Shown: positions 33,759 to 55,909 of the stretch, piece after piece
How positions within the stretch are numbered: the first letter of the stretch is position 1
Layout of the letters: every line of letters starts with the position of its first letter
From: an uncultured Pirellula sp.
Lineage (GTDB): Bacteria; Planctomycetota; Planctomycetia; Pirellulales; Pirellulaceae
Assembly: GCA_903858115.1 (NCBI GenBank)
Contig: CAIOHR010000410.1
Span: forward strand, 62,001 to 126,000
DNA: 64,000 bases
Direction of reading: 5' to 3'
The notes under the pieces: generated by a model
Database searches by the model: none
What the model saw: only the letters and a program-made list of their open reading frames with translations
What the model was told of the DNA's origin: nothing
Program-made: the position numbers and the translations under genes

Positions 33759-34466
33759 CTATCTTCGCTTATTGACAATGGTTAGCTCGTTTCGTATCTC
33801 ATCAACACCTGGCTCAAATCTCAAGAGACTTACGAGAAGATCTGCTTGCCGTTGCGAATCAACTTGACCTCGAACAATTGCCAATCGTCCGACCATTTCC
33901 AAGCCGATGTTAGTGCCAGCTAATCGTGTTATTCGGTTTTGGATAGCCTGCAATGGTAGCTCCTGTCCGCTATTGGCTTCCACTTGCTCCGGGGAATTCA
34001 CGGAAAAACCTTCATCAAACTCAAGACGTGGGTAGTACATTCCGGATGCTGGTTGGAGCGGGACCGGGCGATTCCCGGTGCGATCCTTAGGAATACGCAA
34101 GGTGTCCACCGCACTCTGCACTCGGCCCACGCCTATCGCTTGCGTAGCCCCCACAAACCCCTGCTGATCCGTTCTGTTCGAGCCGACGAAGTCATTTCTC
34201 GCTCGACTTCCACGAACGAATCGACCGCTCACTGTAGAATTGATTCCGCTGTCGGTCGCCGTTACACCATTACTCGGCAACCCAGTTCCAAAATTGCTGG
34301 TTGCTCGCGCTCCTGGCTGCTGTCGTCCTGAAAGTGAACTTATGGGGCCACCCATAGCACTAGTACGATTGCCAATCAACTGTGCTTGGCACACCTGCTG
34401 TTGCCAAGAGATGAATCCGAAAACGAGCGAAAAAACAAAGACTCCACTTTTCCCTGAAACTCGCAT
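33759..34466 (-). CDS. Secreted BON-domain protein, last gene of the secretion cluster
   Basis: This is a 235-residue protein with a signal peptide (about 1-30), a long low-complexity Gly/Ser/Thr-rich stretch (about 35-110) and a C-terminal BON domain (about 165-232; LEMVGRLAIVRGQVDSQRQ). BON domains bind membranes or secretin-type structures in the periplasm. It follows the GspM-like gene after 17 bases, so it is co-transcribed with the type II secretion genes and may help to anchor or stabilise the outer-membrane complex; that role is inferred. Confidence 0.8.
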   Translation of the reverse strand: MRVSGKSGVFVFSLVFGFISWQQQVCQAQLIGNRTSAMGGPISSLSGRQQPGARATSNFGTGLPSNGVTATDSGINSTVSGRFVRGSRARNDFVGSNRTDQQGFVGATQAIGVGRVQSAVDTLRIPKDRTGNRPVPLQPASGMYYPRLEFDEGFSVNSPEQVEANSGQELPLQAIQNRITRLAGTNIGLEMVGRLAIVRGQVDSQRQADLLVSLLRFEPGVDEIRNELTIVNKRR

Positions 34467-34483: not shown

Positions 34484-35398
34484 CTATTCGTTCTCTTTCG
34501 GTGCTGTCACGGATCCAATCGACTCACCCAACTTGATCCAATGCACATCCTGGTTGACATTGACCTGAACTCGATCCGCCTCCAAACTCACGACTTGAAT
34601 CTCATGAAGAGCGACCGGTACGCGCTCCCCAGACTGAATTTTAGCAATCGTCCCCTTCGAATCCACCGTAAACCAAGCTTCGGTCTGCCCTCCCCGGTTC
34701 ACGGTGATTGCCTTTAAAGTAACGTCATACAATGCCTTGGCAAATCCCCGGGCGAATAGATTCCGCTTTACAAAAGCGTTGACGGACTCGCGATCCGCGA
34801 TAATCTCCGGGAGCACGCGCCATTCGGTAACCTCTGTATCGTTCAACGCCCCCTCCAAGCTCAAGACTTGTATCGAGAGACTGACATCTAGCCGACCTTC
34901 GTTTCCGATTGGATTCAATGTAAGGGATGTAACCTTATGCAAAATACCGGCGTTTCGAAACTCGTCGAGAAATGCGGCTAGTTTGGAAAGCGACGCTTGT
35001 CCACGCAACGTAAAATCGATTCGACTGCCGATCTTTTCACGTTTCCCCTTCTTCGCCCTTGAGCGAATTTCGAGAGGAGCGGGTTGGGAGGCATCGACGG
35101 TCGAAGAGGTGAATTCAAATTGCTCAATCTTCCCTAGCAACCATTTTTGATAAACGGATCTCGCTGCTTGTGGATCTGAAGGCAGTGCTCTCGCCAGGTA
35201 ATCATCATTCCGCTTTCCGATTTTTTGGGCCAGTAGTTGCTGTTGCTTGGACTTCTTTAGATCGCTATCGAGATCTTCCAATTGCTGCGTCAATTGCAGT
35301 TTCGGTTGCTCCACCCAAGAACGATACGTGGAATCGGCTCCATAGAGCCCAAACACACTCGCTCCTCCCGCAATTAGCCACTTGGTTCGTGTGTTCAT
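34484..35398 (-). CDS. gspM: GspM/PilO-like inner-membrane protein with a GspC-like C-terminus
   Basis: A 304-residue protein with one N-terminal membrane helix (about 8-22), a coiled-coil stretch (30-65) and a PilO/GspM-type ferredoxin-like domain (about 80-195). The last 90 residues look like the GspC homology region: an NLFARG start near 218, a short strand pattern, then SGERVPV and a final WIKLGESIG. GspC normally links the inner-membrane platform to the secretin and is otherwise missing from this locus. The ATG overlaps the GspL stop by 4 bases (ATGA). The GspM placement is fair and the GspC part is tentative. Confidence 0.7.
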   Translation of the reverse strand: MNTRTKWLIAGGASVFGLYGADSTYRSWVEQPKLQLTQQLEDLDSDLKKSKQQQLLAQKIGKRNDDYLARALPSDPQAARSVYQKWLLGKIEQFEFTSSTVDASQPAPLEIRSRAKKGKREKIGSRIDFTLRGQASLSKLAAFLDEFRNAGILHKVTSLTLNPIGNEGRLDVSLSIQVLSLEGALNDTEVTEWRVLPEIIADRESVNAFVKRNLFARGFAKALYDVTLKAITVNRGGQTEAWFTVDSKGTIAKIQSGERVPVALHEIQVVSLEADRVQVNVNQDVHWIKLGESIGSVTAPKENE

Positions 35399-36978
35399 TT
35401 GGATGGTCCGACCTGAGAATCGGGTTGTTTGTCTAAGTCGAAACTCGATGAACTCTTACTATCGCTCGGAGAGGAAACAGGTGGCGCAAATCGCTTGTCG
35501 ATCGGTGCGTTTGCAGCAAACTTTATACTTGTCTCGAAGTGCCAGGGATAGTCGGAGGTCTCCGGACTTTGGCTGATCTGTCGGCTCAACACAGAATACT
35601 TTGCACTCTTCAATCGATCCTCCAACACGGAAATGTATTCCTGTTGATTCACTTGAACAGAAAGATCAATTGCACCACCGCTTCCTGAAAGATTGGCGGT
35701 CAGTCGTCGTACGGTTGCGTTCTGCCCTTCAGGCAGTCTCTTCGATAACTCGTTGAGTTCCGTAAGCCAATCGGTTTGGTTGGAAAGCCAGTCCTCAACC
35801 GCTTGAACTTTGTCCGCTTTCTGTTGGTACTTGGAAGTCACTTTGGATGTATTGGAAAATTCCGTCTCGCGTTGAGCGACTTCGTCTTTCAACTCGCTAA
35901 TGTCACTCAGCATTACATATGCAGCAATGGCTGCCGCTGCTGCGATCAGTCCACCGAATGCACTGCGCCGCACCCAAGGGTTCACGGGTTTGGGTGGTTG
36001 TTTCGGATGAAGAAGATTGACTGGGAGACACTTATGAAAATAGTCCCATGCGGCACCCAAGTTCGGAGCAATCACTCCATTGATCGGCGCTGCGAGGGGT
36101 GGCACTGGGCTGGAATCATTCCAGCCTTCGCCCGGATCGACAATACTGACCGTTAAGTGTTCATGGCTATTCAACGCAGCGGTTACGCTCGTTGCAAAGG
36201 GACTATCGCCGAGGAACGCGAGTTGGATTGGAAGGGTAGCGATGTGATGTGGCAATAATGTGAGGCAACGCTCCACTTCGATGGCCACTTGTTCGGCGAC
36301 TCGTTCCGAATCGTCCGTACTATTTCGAATAGATCGAAGCAACATCGGCATCGCATCGTGGCACATCGATATCTCAGTCTCACCAGGGTAAAACTGAATC
36401 GCGATAGCAAACCCATCCTTCAAGACAGAATGCCGTTTCATCAAACTGAGTGGTCCTAGATGTCGTGCTCCAACTCCAACCAATTTGAGTCCAGACGTTG
36501 TGGCTTGATCTTCCAGCGATTGTAAATACTTAGGTTGCGCGCTAAAGACGAGCACGTTGTTGACTTCGGAGTTTGTTCCAACCTCTTGGACTGGCGACGA
36601 TATCGCGAAGTCGACCGTCGGCGGTTCGTGGCCATCCCCATACTGCTGTTCGATCTCGCTCGCCACCATGGCCGAGGTCTCTTTTTCATCCCCCTTGGGG
36701 AGAGTCAGCGTGGAGAGATCGAGTTCCGGTCGCGAGAGGAGGACCAGAACTTGGTTGATCTTGCGATTCGATTGAGTCAAGTGTCCAGCAAACGCAGTGA
36801 TCGGTTTGTCTTGAGGTGTAAGCTCTATCGTACCGGTACTGTTGTCGGTCAAAGGCTCACGCATGGAGCCGATGAAGTAATAGAGTCGCTCTCGATCCCA
36901 ATGAATGACCGCGACAGGCCCCACGCCTGAACGACGATTGGGCATGCGAATGAATTTGGAAAGATCTGGAACTATCAT
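35395..36978 (-). CDS. gspL: GspL-like platform protein (PilM/PilN-type)
   Basis: Protein of about 527 residues. The first 320 residues look like an actin-like (PilM/GspL cytoplasmic) domain. One membrane helix near residue 375 (GGLIAAAAAIAAYVML) is followed by a periplasmic coiled coil and a ferredoxin-like domain (about 420-500) and a Ser/Pro-rich tail. This layout is that of GspL, which joins the GspE ATPase to the inner-membrane platform. ATG 36978 leaves 17 bases after the gspK stop; an upstream start at 37047 would overlap gspK. Confidence 0.8.
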   Translation of the reverse strand: MIVPDLSKFIRMPNRRSGVGPVAVIHWDRERLYYFIGSMREPLTDNSTGTIELTPQDKPITAFAGHLTQSNRKINQVLVLLSRPELDLSTLTLPKGDEKETSAMVASEIEQQYGDGHEPPTVDFAISSPVQEVGTNSEVNNVLVFSAQPKYLQSLEDQATTSGLKLVGVGARHLGPLSLMKRHSVLKDGFAIAIQFYPGETEISMCHDAMPMLLRSIRNSTDDSERVAEQVAIEVERCLTLLPHHIATLPIQLAFLGDSPFATSVTAALNSHEHLTVSIVDPGEGWNDSSPVPPLAAPINGVIAPNLGAAWDYFHKCLPVNLLHPKQPPKPVNPWVRRSAFGGLIAAAAAIAAYVMLSDISELKDEVAQRETEFSNTSKVTSKYQQKADKVQAVEDWLSNQTDWLTELNELSKRLPEGQNATVRRLTANLSGSGGAIDLSVQVNQQEYISVLEDRLKSAKYSVLSRQISQSPETSDYPWHFETSIKFAANAPIDKRFAPPVSSPSDSKSSSSFDLDKQPDSQVGPSK

Positions 36979-36994
36979 AGCTGTAGATATACGT

Positions 36995-38701
36995 CTAATT
37001 GCGATTCTCATCAAAGGACGCGAGGTTGAAACCGGCATCCCACGCATGCCAAGTTTTGAGGTCCTGCGGTTTGGAAGGACGCTGACATCCGTCGATAGTC
37101 ATGGTGCACCGAAATACGGGTGAACGTTCTTCGCGATACCCAACGACTTGAACCGAATACACATCGCTTCGTCCGGTAAGGAACGGTTCCAGTTCTCTCG
37201 CTTTTTCCAAGGTGACGATACTTCGCTGAAGCAACCATGCAATCGTTCCTGCCGATTGAACTTTGATCGACTCGTCACTGCGTGCGGCTACGATTCGACT
37301 GGCAGTCGCATCGTCCATCGATGGAATAGCCATCAACACTTCCCATGGCGCATCCCAAATATCGATCCGCCCCTCGTAGTACGCACTTCGGTCGATCGAA
37401 CAATCATCCAGTAGTCTAACAAGGTAGTTCGAATTGTCGCCATTACCACTGATAAATGGACTGACGATCGTCTTTGTTTGGCTGTTAGGTGTCCCCGCAG
37501 CTCCAGGGATCCGAATCGACGCATCTATTAAATCCAACAAACTTCGAAACTGATATCGCGATGGTACGCTCCAGTCAGGTGTGCCGACTGATTCTCCCGA
37601 TGGAATGCTCGTTCCGCTCCGTGATGAAGCAGTGGAACCAGCTGGATTTCCTGATGGCCCATACTGGCGCATGGCTATCACACAGTCTGCGAGTTGCTGA
37701 GGCCAAATCCCCATCAAGTCGCGATGCAAGACGCGCAAGTCCATCGCATTGATGTCGATCCTAGGTCCGCCATCCGACCGTTCATTGCGACTCGCTGAAT
37801 ACTTGGTGAAGTAACGTTGCATGGCAATGGGTTCTGTCGCGCTCGAGGCTACAGGCAAACCCTGTCCAGAGGAAGCTCGACTTCGCTTGTCCCACCAGCG
37901 TTGCTCGATCGCTTCGATTTGATAGTTTTGATTCAAATCGCCACCGAGCCACTGCGCAGCAAATAGTCCACGATCCGCTGAAATGGATGGAGATCCCGAC
38001 GACATCCCGGCAGAGGATTGTGCAGAATTTCGATCTGCGCCCGAACCAAGTGGTGCACCGGTCATACTAGACACGGGACCTGGTACAAGAATCCCAGCTT
38101 GAATCAACCACGGGTCGATGGTCTCTGGATCTATCCCAGGGATTCGAGACAAAACCTTCCTTGCGTGTCCAGGTCGCGTTCGTTCCCATTCTCGCAATAA
38201 CTGAATAGGAATCTTTGCTGATTCGTTCTCGAACCCAAAGCGCCAAGTATTTGCCGAAGCTTCGGTTGCTGATCGACCTGAACTAGATGGAGAAACAGCC
38301 TCACGATCATTTCGTTCACCTTGTGCGTTTCCCACGGTTGATAATGGCGATATCAAAACATAACGCCAGGGCTGTGCCGCAGGGCCTGTCGCCGCCTCGT
38401 TGGAATCCGACGAAGCAATCAATCCACGAAAGGGTGTTCCCTCGGTATCAACTCTATTTTCTTGGCTACCCACCACGTCGATTCGCATCGCAAAAGGAGC
38501 ATCCAAAAGGTTGCATGCTTGTTCGATACCACTGTTCGCAGCTTGCCTCGCGAGGAGTTGCTCCTCGTATAGTTTTGCAAGACGATACTCTGACTGCATT
38601 TCAAAGGAGAATCGATATGCCGCTAACGATACCAACATCACAAGGACAAAAACAACAATCAGTGCGATACCTTTTCGACTTCGAAGCGATCTGCGTTTCA
38701 T
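36995..38701 (-). CDS. gspK: Type II secretion minor pseudopilin GspK
   Basis: This is a 568-residue GspK-like protein. The N-terminal segment RKGIALIVVFVLVMLVSLAAY is a pseudopilin helix, with Gly before the cleavage site and no Glu at +5, as usual for GspK at the pseudopilus tip. The large globular part contains helix-hairpin-helix-like repeats (IPGIDPETIDPWLI; IPSMDDATASRIVAARS). Length exceeds the usual 320-340 residues because of Ser-rich insertions (e.g. near 140 and 225). The start overlaps the gspJ stop (TAATG). Confidence 0.88.
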   Translation of the reverse strand: MKRRSLRSRKGIALIVVFVLVMLVSLAAYRFSFEMQSEYRLAKLYEEQLLARQAANSGIEQACNLLDAPFAMRIDVVGSQENRVDTEGTPFRGLIASSDSNEAATGPAAQPWRYVLISPLSTVGNAQGERNDREAVSPSSSGRSATEASANTWRFGFENESAKIPIQLLREWERTRPGHARKVLSRIPGIDPETIDPWLIQAGILVPGPVSSMTGAPLGSGADRNSAQSSAGMSSGSPSISADRGLFAAQWLGGDLNQNYQIEAIEQRWWDKRSRASSGQGLPVASSATEPIAMQRYFTKYSASRNERSDGGPRIDINAMDLRVLHRDLMGIWPQQLADCVIAMRQYGPSGNPAGSTASSRSGTSIPSGESVGTPDWSVPSRYQFRSLLDLIDASIRIPGAAGTPNSQTKTIVSPFISGNGDNSNYLVRLLDDCSIDRSAYYEGRIDIWDAPWEVLMAIPSMDDATASRIVAARSDESIKVQSAGTIAWLLQRSIVTLEKARELEPFLTGRSDVYSVQVVGYREERSPVFRCTMTIDGCQRPSKPQDLKTWHAWDAGFNLASFDENRN

Positions 38702-39855: not shown

Positions 39856-40406
39856 GGTCTTGCTCCCCGGCGAGCGGAAGGATCTCGGCGTGAGGGGGCG
39901 GAGGGGACGGGGGCTCCTGAATCATTCATCGAGTTATCGACGGAATTTGCCTGTTGCTGAACCATTGGACGACGAGCGGTCTGAACCAAGCGAACGATCG
40001 GCTCTGGATCACCTTGTTTCTCGCTAGAAGCTTCTCGGAATAAAGAGACCTCTACTCGAAGCAGCGAGGGCACTTCCAACTTCTTATCGGATGGCGATGT
40101 GATAGCTGCGCTTTGCAAGTTCTCCATGGCTGTGACGACCACTTGAAATGCCTTTGGCTGTGGTCCCGTCGTTTCGCCGGAATACTCTTCAAACATATTG
40201 CCAGCCGCAATCCTAGCCAGCGCTTCGTCGAGAATGGAATACGCCTGAATGATCGTAATGACTTTTGACTCCGCCCGATTTCCGAATCTTGCACCCGTTC
40301 CGATGATCGTAGACAGAACCATCGCGCTGCCTGCCAATATGCTGGCGGCAATCATCACCTCCAGCAACGAGAGTCCTCGACGGCAAGCGGCTTTGTCCAG
40401 ACTCAT
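39852..40406 (-). CDS. gspI: Type II secretion pseudopilin GspI-like
   Basis: A 184-residue pseudopilin with prepilin helix RGLSLLEVMIAASILAGSAM at 10-29, cleaved after Gly11. Then come a helix and a short beta-rich domain, and a Ser/Pro/Arg-rich tail. GspI forms the tip complex with GspJ and GspK. Both ends overlap neighbours by 4 bases (ATGA), indicating strict translational coupling. Confidence 0.82.
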   Translation of the reverse strand: MSLDKAACRRGLSLLEVMIAASILAGSAMVLSTIIGTGARFGNRAESKVITIIQAYSILDEALARIAAGNMFEEYSGETTGPQPKAFQVVVTAMENLQSAAITSPSDKKLEVPSLLRVEVSLFREASSEKQGDPEPIVRLVQTARRPMVQQQANSVDNSMNDSGAPVPSAPSRRDPSARRGARP

Positions 40407-41146: not shown

Positions 41147-41195
41147 GATTAGCCTTCTAGATAAAACGACATTCAAACTCCTGAGCGAAATCGGA

Positions 41196-41708
41196 TTAGG
41201 ACTTTGCAGCGGTGCTTTTCTCTTCGCTTGCATCGCTCGAAGACTGCGCAGGATTTCCGATATCGTCACTTGTGTCACGCTTCCGGTCAGGACCGATCGA
41301 GAAGATGCGCGGGAGCGTATCCGTGGAAGAACTAGCGCCCGCACTGGAAGACTCTTCGGTTGACTCGGTTTCATATTCGTATTCGAAATCGCTACCCCAG
41401 GGATCCTTTGGCAGCTTTCCACCTTCGATATAGGGACCATCCCAGTTCTTAGCGAGCGCTTCGTCCTCGGGTGCTTCTACGAGGAGTGCCAATCCTTCCT
41501 CTGTGGTAGGAAAGGTTTTCATATCGACTGCAAACATCTTCAATGCAGATTCCAAGTTCCCGATTTGCGCTTGGGCTGTCCGAATATCGGCCTTCTTCTG
41601 AGTTCCCAGAACTCGTGGGCCGACCAATGCAATGATCCCAACCAAAATGACCAAGACGATCATCAACTCTAGCAAAGTTAAGCCTTTGCGATAATTCTGT
41701 TTCTTCAT
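41196..41708 (-). CDS. gspG: Major pseudopilin GspG
   Basis: The major pseudopilin of the type II system, 170 residues. KGLTLLELMIVLVILVGIIAL at 8-28 is the prepilin helix with Glu at +5. The family's TTEEGL, DGPYIEGGKLPKDPWG and the FSIGPD...DDIGN calcium-site region are all visible. A Ser/Glu-rich insertion (about 122-140) and Ser-rich tail depart from typical GspG. ATG 41708 has a strong AGGAG eight bases upstream and was chosen for that reason. A prepilin peptidase is needed but not encoded in the window. Confidence 0.92.
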   Translation of the reverse strand: MKKQNYRKGLTLLELMIVLVILVGIIALVGPRVLGTQKKADIRTAQAQIGNLESALKMFAVDMKTFPTTEEGLALLVEAPEDEALAKNWDGPYIEGGKLPKDPWGSDFEYEYETESTEESSSAGASSSTDTLPRIFSIGPDRKRDTSDDIGNPAQSSSDASEEKSTAAKS

Positions 41709-41756
41709 TTTCTTTCTCCTAAATGTAGTGTTTCCAAGTTTCATTCTCCGAGTCGA

Positions 41757-42974
41757 TCAGCCAACCGAAGAGTTCAGATCGAGCACTGGCATGAGTACCC
41801 CAACAATCACAAACATCACCATACAGCCGATCAAAACAAGCATCATCGGTTCAATCATTCGAACCAACACATCGAGTTTGCGTTCGATTCTCAAATCGAT
41901 TCGATCGGAAATTTTGACAAGAACATCGTCGAGGGTATTGGACTCTTCAGCCACTCGAATCATCGCCATCACCTGCGCCGGGATCAATCCACTCGCAAGC
42001 AACGGTTTCGATAGAGAATCACCGGATGTAACGTTCTCGGCCGATTGGAGGATTGCGTCTGCTAACAATACATTGCCTGTCGATTCGCTACTGATCTTCA
42101 GCGCGCGAAGCAGAGGCACTCCATTGTGCAGCATCGTTCCTAATACTCTACAAGTCCGAGAAACGGCCGAGTCGTGAAAAATAGACCCGAGGAGCGGTAT
42201 TCGAAGTTTCAAACGATCTGTCCAGCGCCGTCCTGATACCGTGTTGGTCCAACGATAGACACCGTAGGCGGCAGCCGCGAGGCCCGCGAGTACCATCAGA
42301 CCGTAGGCAGACATCATCTGACTAGCCCCCAACAGGATGACCGTGACGGTGGGCAATGCACTCCCCGTCTGTTCCAATCGATCAAAGAGTGGTTGAAATT
42401 TTGGAACCAAAAAAACCACCATCAGCGAAACAATAGCTGTTCCGACAAATCCCAAGATCGCAGGATAGGTAAGTGCTCCGACAATTTTACTGCGCATCTC
42501 ATCTTGCTTGCGAAGAAAATGCGAAGTGCGTTGAAGAGCCTCCTCGAGGAAAGCACCTTCTTGTCCAGCGCGAATCATACTCAATGTCAGTTCGGAAAAT
42601 ACACCGGTCTCTTTGGACATCGCCACATCCAGAGTATCTCCTTGTGAGACAGCTTCGTGTATACGAAGAACGGACTCTTTGAGTCGCGGGTTCTCGGTTG
42701 CTTCCGCAAGAATCTGAATCGACTCGAGCATCGGGACGCCGTTGGAAAGGAGATCCGAAAGCTGCGAACAAAGGTCAGCCACTTGTTCTTTTTTGATACG
42801 TTTGGGAAGCGTAAAGCTCACACTCGGCTTGGCAGCTTGCTTCCCTATGACTGAAATAGGGAACAAGGACTGAGAGCGAAGCTTTTGCATTGCATCGGCT
42901 TTTGAATTTGCAACGAGAGACCCCGAACGTTTTTCACCGTTGAGAGATTTTGCGGTATATGCAAAGTCAGCCAT
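41757..42974 (-). CDS. gspF: Type II secretion inner-membrane protein GspF
   Basis: This 405-residue platform protein has two T2SSF domains (about 70-190 and 270-395) and three membrane helices (about 170-190, 220-240 and 375-400). Conserved pieces are LSDLLSNGVPMLESIQIL and LGTMLHNGVPLLRALKI. GspF is the polytopic centre of the inner-membrane platform on which GspE acts. It lies 44 bases after gspE and 48 bases before gspG, as in standard loci. Confidence 0.95.
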   Translation of the reverse strand: MADFAYTAKSLNGEKRSGSLVANSKADAMQKLRSQSLFPISVIGKQAAKPSVSFTLPKRIKKEQVADLCSQLSDLLSNGVPMLESIQILAEATENPRLKESVLRIHEAVSQGDTLDVAMSKETGVFSELTLSMIRAGQEGAFLEEALQRTSHFLRKQDEMRSKIVGALTYPAILGFVGTAIVSLMVVFLVPKFQPLFDRLEQTGSALPTVTVILLGASQMMSAYGLMVLAGLAAAAYGVYRWTNTVSGRRWTDRLKLRIPLLGSIFHDSAVSRTCRVLGTMLHNGVPLLRALKISSESTGNVLLADAILQSAENVTSGDSLSKPLLASGLIPAQVMAMIRVAEESNTLDDVLVKISDRIDLRIERKLDVLVRMIEPMMLVLIGCMVMFVIVGVLMPVLDLNSSVG

Positions 42975-43018: not shown

Positions 43019-44713
43019 CTAGTCGGCTTTCGTGACACGCAACACCTCATCTATGGTTGTGATTCCAGAGAGCACTTTGTTCCAGCCATCCTCACGGAGC
43101 GTTTCCATCCCATTGCGAACGGCAGCCTGCTTGATGACATCCGACGTACAGGCTTGTGTTACCAGATGGCGAATCTCTTCATTGGTCACTAGCAGTTCAT
43201 AGATACCCTTTCTGCCACGGTAACCAGTATTGCGACAGCACTCACAGCCTTCGGGACGATACAACAAAGGTGTGTTCTCCAATTGTGCAACAGGAAAATC
43301 TTCTGGAAGATCCTCCAGTTTGGGCTGATACGGAACTTTGCAATCTTCACAAAGCACGCGAACCAAACGCTGCGCCATAACACCTTCTACCGTGCTGGCG
43401 ACAAGGAATGGTTCGACCCCCATATCACCCAGTCGCATAAAAGCACCCGCCGCATCATTGGTGTGCAATGTGCTGAAAACCATATGCCCAGTGAGTGACG
43501 CTTGCGTCGCATTCTCGGCCGTTTCCAAATCTCGTATTTCTCCGACCAGAATGACATCTGGATCGTGACGCAGGATAGCTCGCAAACATGCTGCGAAAGT
43601 CAGGCCTACCTTGCTGTGAACCTGAATTTGATTGATCCCTTCGAGTTGGTATTCGATCGGATCCTCGGTCGTAACAATCTTTACATCCTCTGATTTGATC
43701 TCACTCAATGCGCTGTAGAGTGTCGTGGTCTTTCCCGAACCTGTCGGCCCCGTCACCAATACAATTCCGTGAGGTAGTCGAATCAATTTTTGGAATCGTT
43801 GGTATACCGATTCCGGCATCCCGATACCACGCAAGGAGAAATTGAGATTCGATTTGTCCAGCACCCGCATGACGACACTTTCACCGTGCAGCATCGGAAT
43901 CACCGAGACGCGAATATCGATCTCTCGACCCTTGACACGAATCTTGATCCGACCGTCCTGCGGAACGCGTTTTTCGGCAATATTCATCTTCGCCATGATC
44001 TTCAAACGACTGATGATCGCGGCGCGGAATTGATTCATCTCAGGGGGAGTCGATTGACGTTGAAGAACGCCATCGATCCGATGACGGATCTTGAGTCCCG
44101 CCTCTTGGGATTCGATATGGATATCGCTCGCTCGGGCTTCGATCGCTTCACTAAGGATCTCATTCACAAGCCGAACAACCGATGCCTGCTGGGCTTCTTC
44201 CGCATCCTCGAGGTTCTCCAGGTCGATACCCTCGAGCATTTCGATCTCGTCTCCCTTGAGACGTTGCAATGCAATCAGCCCATCAATGGTTTCCGATCCA
44301 ACTCCCAAGTATTTCTTGATGAGTCGCTGAATCATTTCGTTGGAGGCCATCACAGGGCGAACTTCCACTTCGACCGCGGAAGCAACCGAATCAATCGCCG
44401 CAAAGTCGAACGGATTACTCACTGCAAGACGGAGCCAACCGTCCCCTCGTTCGATCGGAAAGACCGAATAACGATAGATCAAACGAGCCGGAAAGCCTTG
44501 AAGGGTTTGCTCCGGATTCTCTATGTTGTCGTTGTCGAGCCACTCCATCTTCATCGAGCGAGCACTCGTAGCCAGCAACTCAGACGAGCTGTCAAAACTC
44601 CAACGTTGCGTTAACTCCTCAAGAGCACCCGCATCCGCAAATGCACGGGCTAGCTCTCGCAATTGTTCCGGCTCAAGCAAAGGCCGCGTTCCATTGGGGC
44701 TGGAAATCATCAA
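43019..44713 (-). CDS. gspE: Type II secretion ATPase GspE
   Basis: The cytoplasmic hexameric ATPase that powers pseudopilus assembly, 564 residues. Walker A GPTGSGKTTT is near 330, an Asp box and Walker B (DPDVILVGEIRD) follow, and the zinc site has CEDC and CECC near 455-490. The N-terminal MshEN-like domain (about 40-150) normally binds GspL. GGAG lies six bases before tandem ATG codons. The upstream gene ends 353 bases away, and a consensus-like promoter lies in that gap, so gspE may start its own transcript. Confidence 0.95.
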   Translation of the reverse strand: MMISSPNGTRPLLEPEQLRELARAFADAGALEELTQRWSFDSSSELLATSARSMKMEWLDNDNIENPEQTLQGFPARLIYRYSVFPIERGDGWLRLAVSNPFDFAAIDSVASAVEVEVRPVMASNEMIQRLIKKYLGVGSETIDGLIALQRLKGDEIEMLEGIDLENLEDAEEAQQASVVRLVNEILSEAIEARASDIHIESQEAGLKIRHRIDGVLQRQSTPPEMNQFRAAIISRLKIMAKMNIAEKRVPQDGRIKIRVKGREIDIRVSVIPMLHGESVVMRVLDKSNLNFSLRGIGMPESVYQRFQKLIRLPHGIVLVTGPTGSGKTTTLYSALSEIKSEDVKIVTTEDPIEYQLEGINQIQVHSKVGLTFAACLRAILRHDPDVILVGEIRDLETAENATQASLTGHMVFSTLHTNDAAGAFMRLGDMGVEPFLVASTVEGVMAQRLVRVLCEDCKVPYQPKLEDLPEDFPVAQLENTPLLYRPEGCECCRNTGYRGRKGIYELLVTNEEIRHLVTQACTSDVIKQAAVRNGMETLREDGWNKVLSGITTIDEVLRVTKAD

Positions 44714-45066: not shown

Positions 45067-48000
45067 TCATTGCTTGGAGTAAAGTAAGCGAAGTGCTTTT
45101 TCGAGATTCGCAGCATTGGCCGATTCCAATCGCAGAACTTGGATTTTTTGCGATGGTGCCACTTCTGCTTGCCGGTCGATTTCTTCAATGAACTTGATAA
45201 GCTCTTGGGTCAAATCCGATGGTCCTCGAATGACCAAAGAATTTGAAGTAGGATCCAGCGAAACGGCGAGAAGTGGCCCAGACGAGGCTGCATTGATTTG
45301 CTGAAACATCGTTGCAACCTCGGTCGACACTCCGTCTGGAATGGGAAGTGGCTTTCGGCCGGCTCCGCTCGAAAGTTGAGATTTGTAAACGTCCTTCACT
45401 ATATCCAGGACATTCTTTGCATTGGCTGTTTGGAGGGGCAAGATGCTGGGAGTGATTTGTTGGAGCCTATCGATGAGATCTTGAGAGTCGATAACGGCCA
45501 GCAACTCTTCTGCCGTTTTTCGCTCAGCGAGGTTGCCGCCGATCACGAGAGCATTGATGCGTGGGTCCGCAACAATTTTGAGACGTTGCATCGAGGAAGA
45601 GAAGAACGAAGATCGCTGCGTCGAAATCCCAAAGAGATCCATCAACAGTTCTCGCGCCTCGGTCGCATCTGCATGCCGAAGAATATAGACACCAAAATTG
45701 CCAGCGTTGGCATAAGGTTGAACGCGAGGATTGAGCAACGTATCGAGCAAGTTTTCAAACTGGCTCAATGCTTCTGCATCGTCAGAGGCCACGGTCCATT
45801 GTTCGTCACCGGTTATGACGATGACAGGTGCATTGTCTGCTTTCGGTTCAGTACTCGTTCGATCTATCGGCTGCGATCGTTTCGCTTCTTGGGGCGGGCT
45901 GGCTGGCTGGACCGGGCTGGCTGGCCGCGTGGCGGTTTCCGCGGGATCTTGAAAAGCAACCAAACGACTTCGAGATCCCCATGAACTTCGAGGTTGGTTC
46001 GATTGCGGGTTCTCGAGATTTCCCTTGGGAATCTTTTTGGGATCGATAATCTGAACGGGATTCGCTCGAATCAAAGGCCATAGTCGTTCGACGTTCTCCA
46101 GCAATGCTTGCGGATTTCTATTGATCGGAATGAACCGCACGCCGCCCTGGCCTTTGTCCCGGAGCACCGATTTGGATCCTGCCCCCATCTTATCGAGCAA
46201 TTGCTGGATGCGATCGAGTTGCTCTCGAGTGCCGTGTACCAAAGCCTGTTGCAGACTGCTATCGACGTTGATCGTAGGAGGATTGATTCCTGACTCCTGT
46301 TCAAAAAGAGCATCGGCAGCGGTGCGAAAGGTGAAAGAATCGATCGTCTTCAACGGAAAGATGTCGAATTCTCGTTTCGGTGCCTCAAACTTGCTCAACG
46401 CTTCTTTGATCTTCACTATCTGATCCGCAGTTCCTGCTGCCATGAGCCGACCATTGAGTTGATCGTATTTCAGATCAGCAGGTTCGTCGGCTCCGGACAA
46501 GAGTTTCGTAAGGGAGGATACGATGGAGATTCCGTCGACTCCCTTGAGAGGAAATGTTTCAAATTGACGCTCGGATCCGGACTGCTGAGGTTTGTCGAGT
46601 TCCTGAATCAATTGTTCGAATGCGCGAAGATCGGCTTGGCTTCCGAAAGCGAAGAGTGATCGCGACTCCTTCAGCGTGCTAACGTTCAATCTTGAGCGAG
46701 GTCCTAATGCAGCGGTGATTGACTTTGCAAGTGCCTCTGGGTTCGCGTACTTCAACGTCGCGATTTTGAAATTCGATTGATTGGATGGTTGCAAATTGAG
46801 TTCGTCGACCAATTTCTTGATCGCTTCATGTTCCTGCGGAGTAGCCGCAGCATAGATCGCGCCATTGGTGGCGTCTGCGGTGATCGACGCATTGGGGTAG
46901 TTTTCGCTTAACGCTCGTGCAAGTGACGATGGATCGGAACTCATCAATCGATAGGTCTGCGTCGTAGTTGGATTTTCATTCGACGATTCGATGCTTTGGA
47001 TGGTCTTTTCAATACGTTCCAACTCCGACTTAGGGGCCGTAACAATGAGACTGTTGGTCGCGCGGTCTGCAGTCACCGACACACGCGAGTTTGCCCCAGC
47101 CATGGATGTTCGAAGCGAGCTTGCATCCGCCTTGGAAAGATTGAATACGCGGGTTTCGATATCAATAGCACTCTGATCGTATCCTTGGATGATGTCGGCG
47201 ATCTTTTTATGTTGAGCTTCTGTAGCGGTTACTACAAGCGTTCCATTCGTCGGATCACTGTAGGAATTGATGTCTTTGTACAAAGAAGAAACAATCGTAT
47301 TGATCCCCCTGACGCTCTCAGGTGGTGCATTCTGCACTTTATAGACGACAGCGGTGGCGGTAGCAGGTAGCACCATTTGTTGCTGCAGCATCTCCAACTT
47401 TTGCTGGACGAGTTCTAATTCCGATTCGTTACCTAGGGCCAAAATGGTTGCACTGCGAGCATTGGGTTCTAATTGGATCTGCGTTGGGATCAAAGTCCTC
47501 AGATGCGTCGAGATGGAAAGAACGTCATGTTTTTCAGGGTCGATACGGAATACGCGAGCGGTCTTCTCGCCTGTATCAAGTCCCGCTTCGAGGACCTGAA
47601 TCGATTCGGCGATTCGCTTTTGCGAAGCAGGATCAGCCACTACCATGACGCGATTTGCGGTTGCATCAAGAGTCATGGTTGCCCCGGGATAAAGAGACTT
47701 TAGCGATGCGATCACCGAAGTGCTTGTGCGAGGCTTGATCGGCAAGAATACAGGATCTCGTGGTAAATCATATGTTTTGATCAATGCTCCGATCGCCTCA
47801 TGGTCTTTGTCGTTCGCAGTAATGAAGAGCGACTTCTGCGCGAGGTCCGCGACAATCGTTGCGTTCGGATGAGCCCCTTTCAAGATCGACAGAAGGGTCG
47901 TACTATCGTTCGCTTGGAGCGGATATTGTCGAAGTGTCTTCTTCGGCAGGTTGGGTATTTCTTTCTGAAGTTCATCGATCTTTTTCCCGACCGTCGCTAC

Positions 48001-51000
48001 TTCTTCTGCTGTTCCTACGACCATGATCGTGTGCGTGACAAGATTGGATTCGAGCCGAACATTGGTAGGGGTCGTGCTCTGCAGAACGCTTAGCAACATC
48101 GCTTGATCCACTTCGTCGGGATCGATCTTGAATACCTTGACCACTCGGTTCGATTGGTCCAACTCTTTGGACAACATCTCCACGATCTCAGCAACGCGGC
48201 GGTGTTGGTCTTCGGAGCCCACGACAACGATTTGCCCCGAAGTTCCGATCACTGCCGCGCTCACTGTGGGGACAAGGATTTGAATCGCAGCTTGAATCGG
48301 AGTTGCATGCACTGGGCTCACCCGATAGGTCATCGGCTTCTTCGCGTTCTGGGCGACGCGTGATATCTGCTCGATCGCTTGGGCTACGCGAACATGTTGT
48401 TCTTCGTTCGCCCAAACCGTTACCGTTCGCGAAGCCACATCGCTGCTGAGGATCGCTTGCGGTGCAATTTGCCCCAAAATAACAGGTAACGTGAGCATAT
48501 CGCCGGACGGAACAGAATACGACTTGACTGTCTGTACCGTGCCATCGGGTGAAGCCATCAGTCGGTCCATGGCTGCGCTGACATCGGCTAATTGTTTTGC
48601 ATTGCCTGACGCTATCACACGGTTGTTCGCCGGATCCGACGAGAATTCCATCTCGGGCCACAGCTTTTGCAAGACGGGCAATAGATACGCAGAAGAGACT
48701 CGCTTGGTATCAAACGATCGGATTTGCTTTTCCGAATTGGCAGACGATGGTCGGTCCATCTGATTGATCATCGCTTTGATCACGGCATGATCTTCGATGG
48801 TCCCTGTTGCAACCACTTGTCGCAACGAGTCATCTGCTACCGTGGAGACTCCGAGAGACAACTGATCCACAACCGTCTTCACTTGTGTCGCTTTGGCATG
48901 ATCCAGGGGGTAGACAATGGCGACTTTTTGTAAGCTCGGCTCCGAAGGGCCTTGGATTGCAGCGATAAGCTTCGCTATCTCGGCATGTGTTTTGTCGTCT
49001 GTCGTGACAAGCAATCGGTTATTCTTGGCATCGACATTGACCCGCGCGCCGGTCAACAATGGCGTCAAGGTCGTTTGTAGAGCATCTACGGTCATCCCTT
49101 TCACGGAATAGTTCTCGAGTCGAAGCAGAGACTTCTTCGGAAAGCTTTCCGTAAAGAGAGCTAATCGCGTTGCAATGTTCGTTTGCGTCTCTACATCGGC
49201 CACGGCCGTCAATAGCTTTCCATCGGAGTCGATCGTGATCGTAGCATCCGCGAATTCAGCCATAAGTATTTGCTGAACCAACGAATGATTTTGAAAGTCG
49301 ATTGGATACGATCGAGGAACCTTGGGGGAAGATACCGGAATCGGTATGTCAATCGATTCGAGCAATTTTCGAAACAACGTATGTTGTTCGGCGTTGGCCC
49401 ATACGTACAGCTCCCCTTTGTTCTTCCCATCAAGGAGCTTGATGTTTTCCAAGTTCTTGGGAAGCTCGCTCAGCATGGGTCTTCGTGCGATCTGTGACTT
49501 GGTTAGATTGTAAATCTGCAGTTGGCGATCGGGCGTTTTCGGTATTTGCTCTATCAACGATGCAAGGTTCGATTCAATACTTTCTAGTTCGGTACGATTT
49601 CCTAATGCGGTAAGCTGAAGTCCATCTTCTCTCAACCAAGTTGTCGCATTTGGCGCAATCTTAGCCACCACCGTGAGCCAAGTCGTCGTGGCCGGCCGGT
49701 CCAACGCAAAGGACTTTAGCGCCAAATTGGCATCGGAAGCCGCTTTCTTCCAACCGTCTAAGATCTCGCTGATCAAGGCTATGTCTTCAGCCGATGCTCG
49801 AACAACCAAGTTGCCCGCAGTTGGATTCGCGGCAATTTGTACACCTGGAAAGATAGCCTTCAGCGACGATTCAACGGTGGTGAGAAGCTTGGTGGGAAGC
49901 TCAAAAAAACGGATGCTCTTTTGTCCTTGTTCGACTGGATATATTTCGAGCTTGGCGAGATCTTCGCGAATGAGTCGTTGTTGTTCTGGGGAGGCGGATA
50001 CGAGAACACGATCGGACACTTGCAACACCAATGCGTCTGGAACCAACGCCTTGAGATGCTTGACGAGTTCTGTCGCTGCTGTCCCCGTCAATTGATAAGC
50101 CACCGAATTACTCGAAGGGAGTGCAGAGTGGTTTGCAACCATTTGATCGATTGCTGTTTTGATTGCCGTTTGCTGTGCTGGTACGACGAAAGCACTGAGA
50201 ACATTCGTTTTCGAATCAACCGTGATCTGCTGGCTAGGAATTAACGTTTGAATTGTCTTCAATGTGGACGCCGCATCCAGACCCGCTATCGGATATGACG
50301 CAAAGACTGGTTGGGGAGGAGGAGGTGGCGGTTCGGGTTTGGGTTGAGCTTTTGGAACAGGAATCGATACGATCAGTTCATTGATCATCTTCATCTTGCC
50401 AGCGTTCTCAACCACCAGAAGCTGGCCACCTTGTGCGAGCGGAATGGCTCGACCAAAATTGCTAAGGTATGGCTTCACTTCGTTCAGGACGGCCTCAATC
50501 GGACGCCCTCCGAGGGAAAAGACGACGCTCACCAACTCGAATTGCCCTCTTTCGATCAATTGCGTCAGGCTCACGCGTGGGATCAACTCCAAAGGAATAG
50601 AGTCTCCCAATTCCATGACAACCAGCATTTTTTCTCGTCGCATCAATGCGTAGTTGCGAGTCATCAAGACGCTATTGAGCAAATCGATTCCTTCGCTGGG
50701 CGTATATTCCCGAACATCCATGTAGGTAAAGGACCCAGGCGGGATTCGATCCATGACCAACGTTAAGTCCTGCTGCTGTGCGAACCAGGCGAGCACTTCA
50801 TCCCACTTCATGTCACGAAACTGGAACTTGAGCTTCTTCAGTGGCTCAAGAGTTTGGAACATCTTCCGCTGCTCCTCGGTTAGGAGCTGCAGCGCTTTCT
50901 GGTCGAATTCACTGGTTATGGTTTTTTTGGTCGAGTTGTCCGTGGCAGCCGCGGCTCGGGTTGACCTCTCCTGAATGATCTTCTGCAATTCCGCTCGCTG

Positions 51001-51156
51001 TGCGTCCGTTAGGCTCAGTTTTTCTGCAACTTCCGGATGAATCAGCCGCGAGACATCTGTGTTCTGTCCATGAGCGGTAAGGCAGGGCAAAAGTGCAACG
51101 AAAGCAGCAATAACGAAACAAACGCAGCGGGAACGCCAGGTCTTTGGGTGACTCAT
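45067..51156 (-). CDS. Giant secreted array of secretin N-type domains, no pore domain
   Basis: This 2029-residue protein has a signal peptide (about 1-30), a helical segment with LTxxQ motifs (LSLTDAQ, LLTEEQR; 46-100), and a GspD N0-like domain (about 108-185). An N1-like domain (about 205-268), a Pro-rich linker (267-286) and about 24 further secretin N-type domains of about 70-75 residues follow. Each domain has a start such as YPLDHA, a helix, a strand ending N-x-L-x-V, and a final helix before the next unit. The last copy is cut off after its first helix (LRLESANAANLEKALRLLY). The secretin beta-barrel is absent, so it cannot form a pore alone. It lies between gspE and the divergent gspD, pointing to a periplasmic role in this secretion system. 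Confidence 0.88.
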   Translation of the reverse strand: MSHPKTWRSRCVCFVIAAFVALLPCLTAHGQNTDVSRLIHPEVAEKLSLTDAQRAELQKIIQERSTRAAAATDNSTKKTITSEFDQKALQLLTEEQRKMFQTLEPLKKLKFQFRDMKWDEVLAWFAQQQDLTLVMDRIPPGSFTYMDVREYTPSEGIDLLNSVLMTRNYALMRREKMLVVMELGDSIPLELIPRVSLTQLIERGQFELVSVVFSLGGRPIEAVLNEVKPYLSNFGRAIPLAQGGQLLVVENAGKMKMINELIVSIPVPKAQPKPEPPPPPPQPVFASYPIAGLDAASTLKTIQTLIPSQQITVDSKTNVLSAFVVPAQQTAIKTAIDQMVANHSALPSSNSVAYQLTGTAATELVKHLKALVPDALVLQVSDRVLVSASPEQQRLIREDLAKLEIYPVEQGQKSIRFFELPTKLLTTVESSLKAIFPGVQIAANPTAGNLVVRASAEDIALISEILDGWKKAASDANLALKSFALDRPATTTWLTVVAKIAPNATTWLREDGLQLTALGNRTELESIESNLASLIEQIPKTPDRQLQIYNLTKSQIARRPMLSELPKNLENIKLLDGKNKGELYVWANAEQHTLFRKLLESIDIPIPVSSPKVPRSYPIDFQNHSLVQQILMAEFADATITIDSDGKLLTAVADVETQTNIATRLALFTESFPKKSLLRLENYSVKGMTVDALQTTLTPLLTGARVNVDAKNNRLLVTTDDKTHAEIAKLIAAIQGPSEPSLQKVAIVYPLDHAKATQVKTVVDQLSLGVSTVADDSLRQVVATGTIEDHAVIKAMINQMDRPSSANSEKQIRSFDTKRVSSAYLLPVLQKLWPEMEFSSDPANNRVIASGNAKQLADVSAAMDRLMASPDGTVQTVKSYSVPSGDMLTLPVILGQIAPQAILSSDVASRTVTVWANEEQHVRVAQAIEQISRVAQNAKKPMTYRVSPVHATPIQAAIQILVPTVSAAVIGTSGQIVVVGSEDQHRRVAEIVEMLSKELDQSNRVVKVFKIDPDEVDQAMLLSVLQSTTPTNVRLESNLVTHTIMVVGTAEEVATVGKKIDELQKEIPNLPKKTLRQYPLQANDSTTLLSILKGAHPNATIVADLAQKSLFITANDKDHEAIGALIKTYDLPRDPVFLPIKPRTSTSVIASLKSLYPGATMTLDATANRVMVVADPASQKRIAESIQVLEAGLDTGEKTARVFRIDPEKHDVLSISTHLRTLIPTQIQLEPNARSATILALGNESELELVQQKLEMLQQQMVLPATATAVVYKVQNAPPESVRGINTIVSSLYKDINSYSDPTNGTLVVTATEAQHKKIADIIQGYDQSAIDIETRVFNLSKADASSLRTSMAGANSRVSVTADRATNSLIVTAPKSELERIEKTIQSIESSNENPTTTQTYRLMSSDPSSLARALSENYPNASITADATNGAIYAAATPQEHEAIKKLVDELNLQPSNQSNFKIATLKYANPEALAKSITAALGPRSRLNVSTLKESRSLFAFGSQADLRAFEQLIQELDKPQQSGSERQFETFPLKGVDGISIVSSLTKLLSGADEPADLKYDQLNGRLMAAGTADQIVKIKEALSKFEAPKREFDIFPLKTIDSFTFRTAADALFEQESGINPPTINVDSSLQQALVHGTREQLDRIQQLLDKMGAGSKSVLRDKGQGGVRFIPINRNPQALLENVERLWPLIRANPVQIIDPKKIPKGNLENPQSNQPRSSWGSRSRLVAFQDPAETATRPASPVQPASPPQEAKRSQPIDRTSTEPKADNAPVIVITGDEQWTVASDDAEALSQFENLLDTLLNPRVQPYANAGNFGVYILRHADATEARELLMDLFGISTQRSSFFSSSMQRLKIVADPRINALVIGGNLAERKTAEELLAVIDSQDLIDRLQQITPSILPLQTANAKNVLDIVKDVYKSQLSSGAGRKPLPIPDGVSTEVATMFQQINAASSGPLLAVSLDPTSNSLVIRGPSDLTQELIKFIEEIDRQAEVAPSQKIQVLRLESANAANLEKALRLLYSKQ

Positions 51157-54700: not shown

Positions 54701-54935
54701 ACTCGATCGTCCGCTCGTAGATGATGATTGTCCCGTCGTCTATCCGGACATTGCGCCGCGTGGGATTCCAGACTCGGCAGTTCGTCCTGGTATTGTGCCA
54801 TCCCCGGTAGAGATGGATCCTGCCTTTTCCAAACCCGCGGAACTTATTCCCACGCCCAACACTTCCAGTTCGATCCCCAAGAAGTCGGATGCTTTTATCG
54901 CAGTCGGCCCATTTACCGAGGGACGGTCTCCCTGA
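51702..54935 (+). CDS. gspD: Type II secretion outer-membrane secretin GspD
   Basis: This is the secretin that forms the outer-membrane pore, about 1077 residues. After the signal peptide (about 1-27) come an unusual N-terminal region, a low-complexity Ser/Pro/Asp linker (about 145-205) and five secretin N-type domains (about 220-640). The C-terminal secretin core (about 660-965) has QVMIQVMIAEI, VGQRVPRVV, and VPWLGDIPVIKHLF near its end. A C-terminal extension of about 100 residues may bind the coupled lipoprotein. A recognisable N0 domain is missing here but present in the giant protein encoded divergently. ATG 51702 is preferred over GTG 51693; neither has a clear Shine-Dalgarno. The stop overlaps the next start (TGATG). 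Confidence 0.92.
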   Translation: MTPRKLFGILGAVLGILLLAGNLGAVDSNDAVVRKELQFPTEQLATIETAYRQLFQGRVHSHPAKLNTILLQIGNETVTVEFVAAQRLMRVEGTQKLVSDVIRIGVAVCNRSPQSEVRILSLNDNGQASLGRLAQTGQSSKGAVSSNPFLRMIQRPGAQGGESTMNSGHIALASAQDAPAPMPGVAPSTSAPRSQTPDANKPQDPDAPVSLPLPQFDGVQLQMLPELDAVILRGRDRQLTDLTEIIKRLDEASRLSKPEIEVVPLQHVNSESLASLIATSQEKFIGGRQGRVTVSALGSPNAILLIGWGESMIAMKELILKLDQPSAAGSSFVVIPLTTALATDVQTQLQTFFKTRSGLGPVIQSASDSRSNLLIVHASPRDLLEIRKLVEQLDVQPRMDKHAAKVFQLKHTIAADTAKALQQALATTALNKNKSIELYDEQNKTIASSGILGSVQISTNDRTNSIIVSCLPENMLLVEQFIEQLDSPGSVAKIKIFPIENAVASSLVETLRSLLPTASGATAAAAQLSSSTDESSLLPLRFTVDTRGNNIIAVGSEGDLKIVEAIIVRLDESDAVQRKSSVYRLKNSPAVDVALAINEFLRNKRQVENAGPDANNPFEQIEKEVVLVPEPVQNKLILSATPRYYDEISKLIEDLDQQPPQVMIQVMIAEIVLGNTDEFGVEMGIQDSVLFDRSLLGGLLTRTNTTTTSTPAGVVTNTNQEIVAASNTPGFEFNNTLPLGNSGSSKALTSSGRTGGQGISNFAVGRGNETLGFGGLVLSASSENVSFLLRALQDSRRLEILSRPQVLTLDNQQAFIQVGQRVPRVVRSTLNVQGGQSSDVQLENVGLIVGVTPRISPDGNVVMEIDAEKSKVGPDSEGIPISISPNGQVIRAPRTDTVQAQATVSAADGETIILGGLISRSTRTIHRQVPWLGDIPVIKHLFQYDLNETQRTELVIIMTPHVVRSQGDMERLKQAEFARISWCEGDIFDMHGDVFPPNGVLDRPLVDDDCPVVYPDIAPRGIPDSAVRPGIVPSPVEMDPAFSKPAELIPTPNTSSSIPKKSDAFIAVGPFTEGRSP

Positions 54936-55909
54936 TGCGACGAGTCTATAGCCAATACCATCGAACACCACTACTTTCTCTCGTTGGAGTAATCCTCATT
55001 CTCGGGCTCTCAGGTTGCCAGCCTTTTCTGGGAGCCAAGAGTATGAATCCGTGGAGCAAGAAAAAAGTCGACGCGAAAGTAGTTCCAGACCGTATTCTGG
55101 CTGTTTGGACCGATACGATCCTTCATCAATCTGGGCAAAAAGGGATACGTGGCTTTGGAGGGCGTGTGTACTTTTACGAAAAAGACAAACCCGACCCGAT
55201 CGAGGTCGAAGGTAGCTTAGCTGTCTATGCCTTTGATGCCGAAGACGAATCTATCGACTCTCAAAAACCACTGCGCAAGTTTGCGTTTACCGCCGAGCAT
55301 CTTGCATCACACATGAGCAAGACATCCATTGGGCCCTCGTATAGCATTTGGCTACCATGGTCCGCTGTCGGTGAAGAGCCCGTCAAGTTGAGTTTGATCA
55401 CTCGATTCGAAGGTGTCGAAGGGGGGACGACTATCTCCGATCCGGTGATCAAGTTGCTTCCCGGTATTGCGAAAAAAACCGATACACAAACCAGTAAAGG
55501 AAAAGCAGTAGCTCCTCAAACGGAGCGAGGGCCTCAAACGGAGCAAGGGGTTGTTCAAGCATCCTACACCGAACCAAAGGGAGCAAACTCCGACAAGAAA
55601 GAAACAACACGTCCGGTGGAAACGATCGAACTACCGCCTGGGTTTCAGCGACACTTCAAGAACTCGGATAAATCCGAGACAACGCTTGATTCTTCTGCTT
55701 CTAACATGACGACGAAGGTATTCGATACTCGCTCCAAGCAAATAAAGCGGGATTCGCAAGAGATGCAGTCAAACGAGACGGAAGCTGATTCTGCAGATCC
55801 GAAATCAGGCCCTGAGGTTGCAAGTCCCAAGGCTGATCGAAGGAACCTTCGAGAAGGCAAATGGATTCAGCCTGCTAGTCGACTCGAAGATCGAATGCGC
55901 GACAAATAA
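54935..55909 (+). CDS. Lipoprotein coupled to gspD (candidate secretin pilotin/partner)
   Basis: This 324-residue protein has a lipobox (ILGLSGC, Cys near residue 29), so it should be a lipoprotein. A beta-rich domain follows (about 50-180; VPDRILAVWTDTILHQSG, GFGGRVYFYEK). The rest is a charged, low-complexity tail rich in Ser, Lys and Glu, including two near-identical QTERGP/QTEQGV units. The ATG overlaps the gspD stop, so it is made in step with the secretin. By position it may assist secretin insertion, but it shows no similarity I can see to GspS or PilF pilotins. Confidence 0.78.
   Translation: MRRVYSQYHRTPLLSLVGVILILGLSGCQPFLGAKSMNPWSKKKVDAKVVPDRILAVWTDTILHQSGQKGIRGFGGRVYFYEKDKPDPIEVEGSLAVYAFDAEDESIDSQKPLRKFAFTAEHLASHMSKTSIGPSYSIWLPWSAVGEEPVKLSLITRFEGVEGGTTISDPVIKLLPGIAKKTDTQTSKGKAVAPQTERGPQTEQGVVQASYTEPKGANSDKKETTRPVETIELPPGFQRHFKNSDKSETTLDSSASNMTTKVFDTRSKQIKRDSQEMQSNETEADSADPKSGPEVASPKADRRNLREGKWIQPASRLEDRMRDK

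Follow-up and report, generated by a model that had tools for sequence, protein, structure and literature searches.

The stretch examined here, called the window, comprises 64,000 nucleotides of contig CAIOHR010000410.1 from an uncultured Pirellula sp. (assembly GCA_903858115.1); Pirellula belongs to the Pirellulales, class Planctomycetia. An initial annotation, made from the sequence alone, had reported within it an open reading frame (ORF) of 2029 amino acids (aa) encoding a chain of secretin N-domains between gspE and a divergent true secretin gene. The ORF was confirmed and assigned to the minus strand, and Pfam and NCBIfam scans place gspE downstream of it and the secretin gene, here called SEC, upstream. 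The chain gene is followed downstream, in the same orientation, by gspE, gspF, gspG, three genes for pseudopilins, one resembling gspK, and X35 and X34. Matches to T2SSE, T2SSF and T2SSG over the Pfam cut-offs, together with the pseudopilins and a secretin, identify a type II secretion locus. Among the NCBIfam equivalogs GspG passes its cut-off, GspE and GspF fall short and the minor pseudopilins are weak. The features are collected in Table 1.

Table 1. Features of the chain gene and of the surrounding secretion operon (positions in the window)
Feature	Position	Strand	Basis or remark
Pore-less secretin chain (P0001), 2029 aa	45067..51156	-	ATG at 51156, stop at 45067
Signal peptide, ~aa 1-30	51067..51156	-	Read by eye from sequence
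LTxxQ-like helical part, aa 41-106	50839..51036	-	PF07813 E 0.33, weak
N0 domain, aa 107-184	50605..50838	-	Profile, fold, PF21305 in relatives
N1 domain, aa 203-268	50353..50550	-	Alignments, profile, AlphaFold2 model
21 regular Secretin_N-type units, aa 284-1660	46177..50307	-	Profile tests
Three divergent C-terminal N-type units with insertions, aa 1670-1996	45169..46149	-	Alignment, model
Terminal half unit (beta-alpha), aa 2003-2029	45070..45150	-	Conserved end in relatives; alignment
SEC, partner pore protein, 1080 aa	51693..54935	+	6 Secretin_N stretches and PF00263, no detectable N0
X54, predicted lipoprotein (LSGC box), directly after SEC	54935..55909	+	Start chosen by eye
GspE-type ATPase	43019..44713	-	Pfam T2SSE; TIGR02533 624.1 bits versus cut-off 630.25
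GspF-type protein	41757..42974	-	Pfam T2SSF; TIGR02120 322 bits versus cut-off 424
Major pseudopilin GspG	41196..41744	-	T2SSG; TIGR01710 above cut-off
Minor pseudopilins, H-, I- and J-like by order	40403-41440, 39852-40406, 38701-39855	-	N_methyl, weak family scores
GspK-like protein	36995..38701	-	NF037980 E 3.8e-4, below cut-off
X35, GspL/PilM-PilN-like	35395..37047	-	Position and reading; without convincing family match
X34, GspM/PilO-like	34484..35398	-	T2SSM_b in 2/14 and PilO in 1/14 relatives, weak
X33, secreted-looking	33759..34466	-	Weak BON match; near SEC-X54, X34 or chain in relatives

A Pfam scan of the chain detected 14 Secretin_N stretches (E 1.5e-98) and no match to the pore family PF00263 at E ≤ 1; because the pore is missing, the chain alone was not filed as a secretin. 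NCBIfam returned no family besides TIGR02517, which scored 182.9 versus a cut-off of 351.35. KH-type Pfam matches in the chain and its relatives (for the chain PF24471, 34.4 versus a cut-off of 27) overlie Secretin_N units and were rejected as beta-alpha-beta-beta-alpha look-alikes. In a leave-one-out test, each of the 21 regular internal units was compared with a profile built from the remaining 20; scores ranged over 16.4-48.7 bits, and for no unit did any of 200 shuffles reach its own score. An AlphaFold2 model of aa 98-488 (mean predicted local distance difference test score, pLDDT, 82; predicted template modelling score, pTM, 0.47) contains N0, N1 and beta-alpha-beta-beta-alpha units. The model of aa 1595-2029 (mean pLDDT 73, pTM 0.32) contains three such units, in one of which an insertion is disordered, and, from the terminal half unit, its helix alone. 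An iterated profile detects 23 units, while N1 and one C-terminal unit rest on alignments and models, so that the chain comprises N0, 25 complete N-type units and a half unit. These results agree with the 'about 25' strongly differing units, without a pore core and with a half unit at the end, of the initial annotation; mean pairwise identity between units is 23%. Of the N-terminal features that it had described, the signal peptide is recognizable by eye, and the LTxxQ part gave the weak match listed in Table 1.

The N0-like and N1-like domains that it had named are of the GspD type by both profile and fold. A profile of the N0N1 region of 19 chains, compared with the PDB, matched GspD N-domains best (whole-sequence E 8e-4), and N0 and N1 aligned in register with GspD, each being weak alone. 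The N0 family PF21305 matched 13 of the 19 aligned chain N-termini at E ≤ 1; at this threshold the N-terminus of the window chain gave no match by itself. The top Foldseek matches of the model of aa 98-488 were PulD (6hcg, E 2.8e-9), GspD of enterotoxigenic Escherichia coli (3ezj) and XcpQ (5mp2). The isolated N0 structure 4jtm fitted the chain model with a TM-score (target) of 0.81, a root-mean-square deviation of 1.9 and an E of 9e-3. Whole-model TM-scores were low, as expected from the loose placement of domains in the chain.

Relatives of the chain were named for the best 80 of 106 loci, which hold 32 incomplete and 48 complete chains, 36 of the latter being long. The closest named relative among them comes from a Pirellula metagenome-assembled genome (L110), and all 80 titles name Planctomycetota or groups within; since the search pattern was built from sequences of this order, such titles do not bound the distribution. 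None of the 80 N0N1-bearing ORFs, complete or incomplete, carries a pore. The complete long chains measure 1588-3020 aa with 16-34 detected units, and a further relative, L062 (3749 aa), has 48. All but two of the 36 stop 33-48 aa past the last full unit, the exceptions being L182 and L189 with tails of 133-134 aa. Short pore-less chains of about 1.1-1.5 thousand aa also occur, two of them in the window's own genome and another (L176) in the cultured Blastopirellula marina DSM 3645; they end in a half unit followed by a tail, and the last-unit profile matched 14 of 14 examined, one partially. L180, L181, L182, L186 and L189 are N0N1 proteins of great length that make up a divergent group, whose two complete members (2983 and 3020 aa) have 13 units by the first profile and 31-32 by the iterated one, and have aromatic- and proline-rich tails.

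Comparison of unit order by best matches showed collinearity for 22 of 23 units with the same-genus orthologue L045 and for 19 of 23 with L052 of another genus. Against L056 (30 units) and L062 the middle is not collinear and the last three units are. The ends are thus fixed while middle units turn over, and, as unit number in the middle varies between genera, chain length looks adjustable. Compared with a 93% identical orthologue, the ratio of non-synonymous to synonymous substitution rates (dN/dS) is 0.084 for the chain, 0.051 for SEC, 0.049 for gspF and 0.006 for gspE; the chain is under selection, less tightly than its neighbours. These data bear on the idea that the chain is a decaying or misassembled secretin gene whose pore was lost. 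The missing core and the abrupt half unit are all that speaks for it. The pseudogene reading was rejected because of the conserved end, found in long and short chains alike, and the low dN/dS, with 36 complete long ORFs pointing the same way, and we give it virtually no credence.

PF00263 and Secretin_N were both found in all 20 SEC proteins scanned (20 of the 30 SEC loci, from the window's order), and the N0 family matched none of them at E ≤ 1. The N-terminal and pore parts of a secretin are encoded by separate genes of one system, the arrangement of a split secretin. Since the chain bears an N0 and none was detected in these SEC proteins, it reads as half of a divided secretin rather than as an add-on chamber. 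On reading, SEC begins with a complete unit, and for this reason we rejected the possibility that its start supplies what the terminal half unit of the chain lacks.

The same parts are joined on one polypeptide in other planctomycetes. The N0N1 alignment matched 32 of 199 genomes searched in the phylum and 95 of 148 in the class, and 12 one-piece proteins with N0N1, units and a pore (1932-4624 aa) were fetched; family f100 has more frames of ~2.0-2.4 thousand aa outside these 12. L241-L244 (4213-4624 aa) have 37-40 units by profile, and Pfam finds 48 Secretin_N stretches in L241 and 43 in L244, each plus PF00263. L271 and L276 (3240 and 3269 aa) have 26-27 units, and L268-L270, L274, L275 and L277 (1932-2230 aa) have 6-9. 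For comparison, ordinary secretins of the phylum with N0 and pore measure 698-1181 aa (L247-L251, L255). A relative of X34 lies directly upstream of the one-piece gene in 10 of the 12 (the weakest at 20 bits), and a relative of X54 directly downstream in L275. Genes like gspE, gspF and gspG lie upstream of the giant in genome G209, and gspF and gspG in G193 and G100. Three of these proteins, L241, L242 and L243 (4605-4624 aa; G193, G268 and G100), occur in genomes of 3.0-3.6 Mb.

In the light of these one-piece relatives, the best reading is that a giant secretin has been divided and that the chain is the half with N0, and we consider it probable that it is the inner-membrane-facing half of an enlarged type II secretin. 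What this reading starts from can be read in the sequences themselves: the order of domains, the presence and absence of parts, the linkage of the genes and the covalent joining of the parts in relatives. The initial annotation had suggested that the protein lengthens the periplasmic chamber of the secretion channel or forms a scaffold. Lengthening is the favoured role, given homologues with N0, about 40 N units and a pore in one piece; the picture of an isolated extra part does not seem to hold.

Linkage and co-occurrence of the two genes were examined in 99 genomes, the nearest relatives of the window's genome. As these are not independent, a p-value is not quoted. Both chain and SEC were found in 34 genomes, the chain only in 5, SEC only in 1 and neither in 59. 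These counts were taken among the matches listed (weak-end matches lie outside them), with cut-offs chosen after viewing the lists: ~227 bits or more for the chain, plus fragment G049, and E ≤ 1e-200 for SEC; a SEC fragment in G013 was counted as absent, and G072 is borderline. Chain and SEC share a contig in 12 of the 99 genomes. In seven of these (G036, G030, G058, G056, G089, G061 and G033), representing seven genera, the order is chain-E-F-G...K-X35-X34-SEC-X54 with X33 on the opposite strand, so that chain and SEC bracket one type II secretion operon. They are neighbours in four others: divergent in the window (G000), in G023, where SEC is incomplete at the contig end, and in G037, while in G042 they converge and X54 and X33 separate them. 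At L144, L157, L158 and L175, SEC-X54 precede the chain on the same strand and X33 lies opposite (chain and SEC are both incomplete at L157, the chain also at L144 and L175).

A further linkage count covered those 28 of the 80 chains, close relatives included, that are long, complete and have a downstream flank of 3 kb or more; the other 52 lie outside it. A gspE on the same strand lies within 3 kb downstream in 17 of them, and L135 and L158 have a pore gene nearby. Thus 19 of 28 have gspE or a pore near. The initial annotation had said that finding the protein away from any secretion locus in most relatives would count against its proposal, and this is not what was observed.

The operon of family f21 (G277) suggests how the division may have arisen. 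Its order is short chain-E-F-G...K-X35-X34-SEC-X54, and its SEC keeps N0. In 8 of 9 f21 genomes an N0-only match falls in a frame of 1318-1366 aa, the pore on that frame having been checked for L254. A rule by which only the chain would ever carry N0 was rejected on this account. In quick trees the two-part pores all group together (SH-aLRT, the Shimodaira-Hasegawa-like approximate likelihood ratio test, 94), as do the N0N1 regions of all chains except the long-branched P0004 (SH-aLRT 84), and one-piece groups of the same class fall outside the two-part groups in both. A likely history is that a full secretin was duplicated, that the copy beside gspE lost its pore and that SEC then lost N0 in the Pirellulales; f21, with N0 on both proteins, would be an intermediate. 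One-piece, intermediate and fully divided states would in that case survive side by side.

By analogy with secretins, the chain would oligomerize as stacked periplasmic rings, with N0 at the bottom of the stack contacting the GspE/F/L/M platform. SEC would form the upper stack and the pore in the outer membrane, above the lower stack of the chain. The C-terminal half unit could be the seam that joins this stack to the first SEC N domain, and the lipoprotein X54 might aid the SEC pore as a pilotin. The conduit through which pseudopilus and substrate work would then be composite and very long. We tentatively extend this, and with rather more doubt than confidence, to planctomycete secretin conduits of ~15 to nearly 50 stacked rings, in one or two parts, whose lineage-set ring number would act as a ruler for a deep envelope. 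If so, this would be a type II machine able to secrete across a wide periplasm.

A number of observations weigh against reading the chain as the lower half of a divided secretin. Ring assembly of the chain and its contact with SEC are steps that we infer, and a single-file stack of ~26 rings plus those of SEC is estimated to be of the order of 60-100 nm, beyond an ordinary periplasm. Either such a length is what the design is for, given a deep periplasm in planctomycetes, or it is the strongest reason to assume a different geometry. GspC, the known partner of N0, gave no match (PF11356, E ≤ 10) in the window's own genome. At the chosen cut-off the long chain is common but patchy, with counts of 22 of 27 genomes in the genus, 12 of 34 in the rest of the family and 5 of 38 in the rest of the order. 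SEC of f21 has its own N0, so that only in the Pirellulales are the tasks of the two proteins fully divided. Genomes G301 and G304, with one-piece proteins, carry further short N0N1 frames, and a rule that one-piece genomes never have a separate chain was dropped on their account; one-piece and two-part expansions may be independent. Support in the trees is modest, since they were quick and midpoint-rooted and contain long branches (L073, L074, L255).

Further such points concern linkage, and they bear on two alternatives. The first is that the chain belongs to the same system as a periplasmic scaffold or tether, for example by forming a ring apart, by ensheathing the rings of SEC or by acting as a strut that binds the cell wall, and is not a coaxial lower half. 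With N0 on both proteins in f21 the chain need not be the sole contact with the platform, the single-file stack would be excessively long, and the genes are unlinked in some genomes: in G048 about 670 kb separate them on one contig, and in G009 and G050 SEC-X54 and the chain operon lie on different contigs. A scaffold does not account well for homologues in which N0, tens of units and a pore are joined covalently, or for SEC proteins in which no N0 match was found, and we think it unlikely. The second alternative is that the chain shares with secretins an ancestry alone and serves a different machine, such as a type IV pilus-like fibre, or has a job of its own, such as that of a binding protein. 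Neither gspE nor a pore gene is near, within the stretch covered, in 9 of the 28 long relatives, none of the searched genes was found near the chains of L049, L051 and L052, and 5 of 39 chain genomes have no SEC match at the cut-off, one of them (G007) 95% complete. The bracketing and adjacency described above argue the other way, as does the presence of SEC in 34 of the 39. Chain and SEC are moreover jointly absent from G002, G003, G006, G016 and G025 of the same genus (two of them 77-80% complete), and among the five exceptions G026, G049 and G059 are <90% complete and G013 has its SEC fragment at a contig end. A different machine is in our judgement quite improbable, and the divided secretin stays the reading we prefer.

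Known secretins have few N-domains, as the initial annotation had stated. GspD has N0-N3 (PMC8134430), and the six rings of Thermus PilQ, 35 nm long, are called 'unusual' (PMC5745081). N0 binds the inner-membrane platform via GspC, N domains form stacked rings (PMC8134430, PMC5745081) and known secretins have 12 to 19 subunits (PMC5745081). Against these four to six rings, the 25 N-type units of the chain and the up to 48 matches in a single one-piece relative represent a new scale. The system resembles GspD/PulD in its N0-N1 order, its Secretin_N units, its place in a gspE-F-G...K operon and the pore on the partner, and differs in having N0 and pore on two polypeptides and 25 N-type units instead of N1-N3. 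Thermus thermophilus PilQ is alike in that its extra N rings reportedly reach across most of a wide periplasm; it is a single polypeptide with six rings, serving the type IV pilus and DNA uptake (PMC5745081). The one-piece giants (L241-L244, L271, L276) share N0, 26-48 units and the X34 relative upstream, and differ in having the pore on the same polypeptide as N0.

Split secretins are already known. In rhizobial-type type III secretion systems the N-terminal and C-terminal parts are encoded by separate genes, rhcC1 and rhcC2, and a putative lipoprotein gene, y4xK, accompanies rhcC2 as X54 does SEC; the system is of type III, and the excerpts of these papers contain no mention of an N-domain expansion (PMC3574062, PMC3973906). 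In the mitochondrial type II system, Secretin_N domains (GspDN1-N3) and the pore (GspD) are on separate proteins, and a yeast two-hybrid assay indicated a GspD-GspDN1 contact; this system is eukaryotic, and the excerpt presents it with N0 wholly absent, GspC missing too and no long chain (PMC8134430). The chain and SEC are thus a type II counterpart, in bacteria, of the split secretins known from rhizobia and mitochondria, of a size and arrangement not found in the literature searched. Among the open-access PubMed Central matches listed, long pore-less chains and giant secretins with tens of N-domains in planctomycetes are not described, which is weak evidence of absence.

For the question of how planctomycetes transport large enzymes and fibres across their deep envelope, chain and SEC offer a testable machine with a natural length series.

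Several neighbours of the chain deserve comment. The C-terminus of X34 has an RNLF ... LGE pattern which resembles that of a GspC-HR or PilP beta domain; searches did not confirm this, and an X34 profile compared with the PDB gave unrelated matches alone (best E 0.43). X34 may be a stand-in for GspC, with GspM and GspC functions fused, although this is unconfirmed. X54 follows the pore gene in L190-L196, L199, L204-L206, L209, L071, L054, L144 and L158, and a lipobox pattern was found in 12 of 16 X54 relatives (L054 being doubtful), three of the four misses reading GLGC, SSGC and CSGC; from its sequence it may be a candidate pilotin. X33 lies opposite SEC-X54 in seven genera (L190-L196), adjoins X34 in the window, G009 and G050, and stands beside the chain in L054.

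The window's own genome contains 12 T2SSE-type ATPase matches versus 6 secretin pores. Its two short pore-less chains, one of 1158 aa that immediately precedes a gspE (contig C305, L072) and one of 1081 aa (C380, L073), together with a second pore protein accompanied by an X54 relative (C58, L071), suggest that it may hold more than one two-part system. Downstream of the operon in the window, a calpain-family protease of 1106 aa (29028-32348, minus strand) and a zinc carboxypeptidase (27612-28838, minus strand) are possible substrates.

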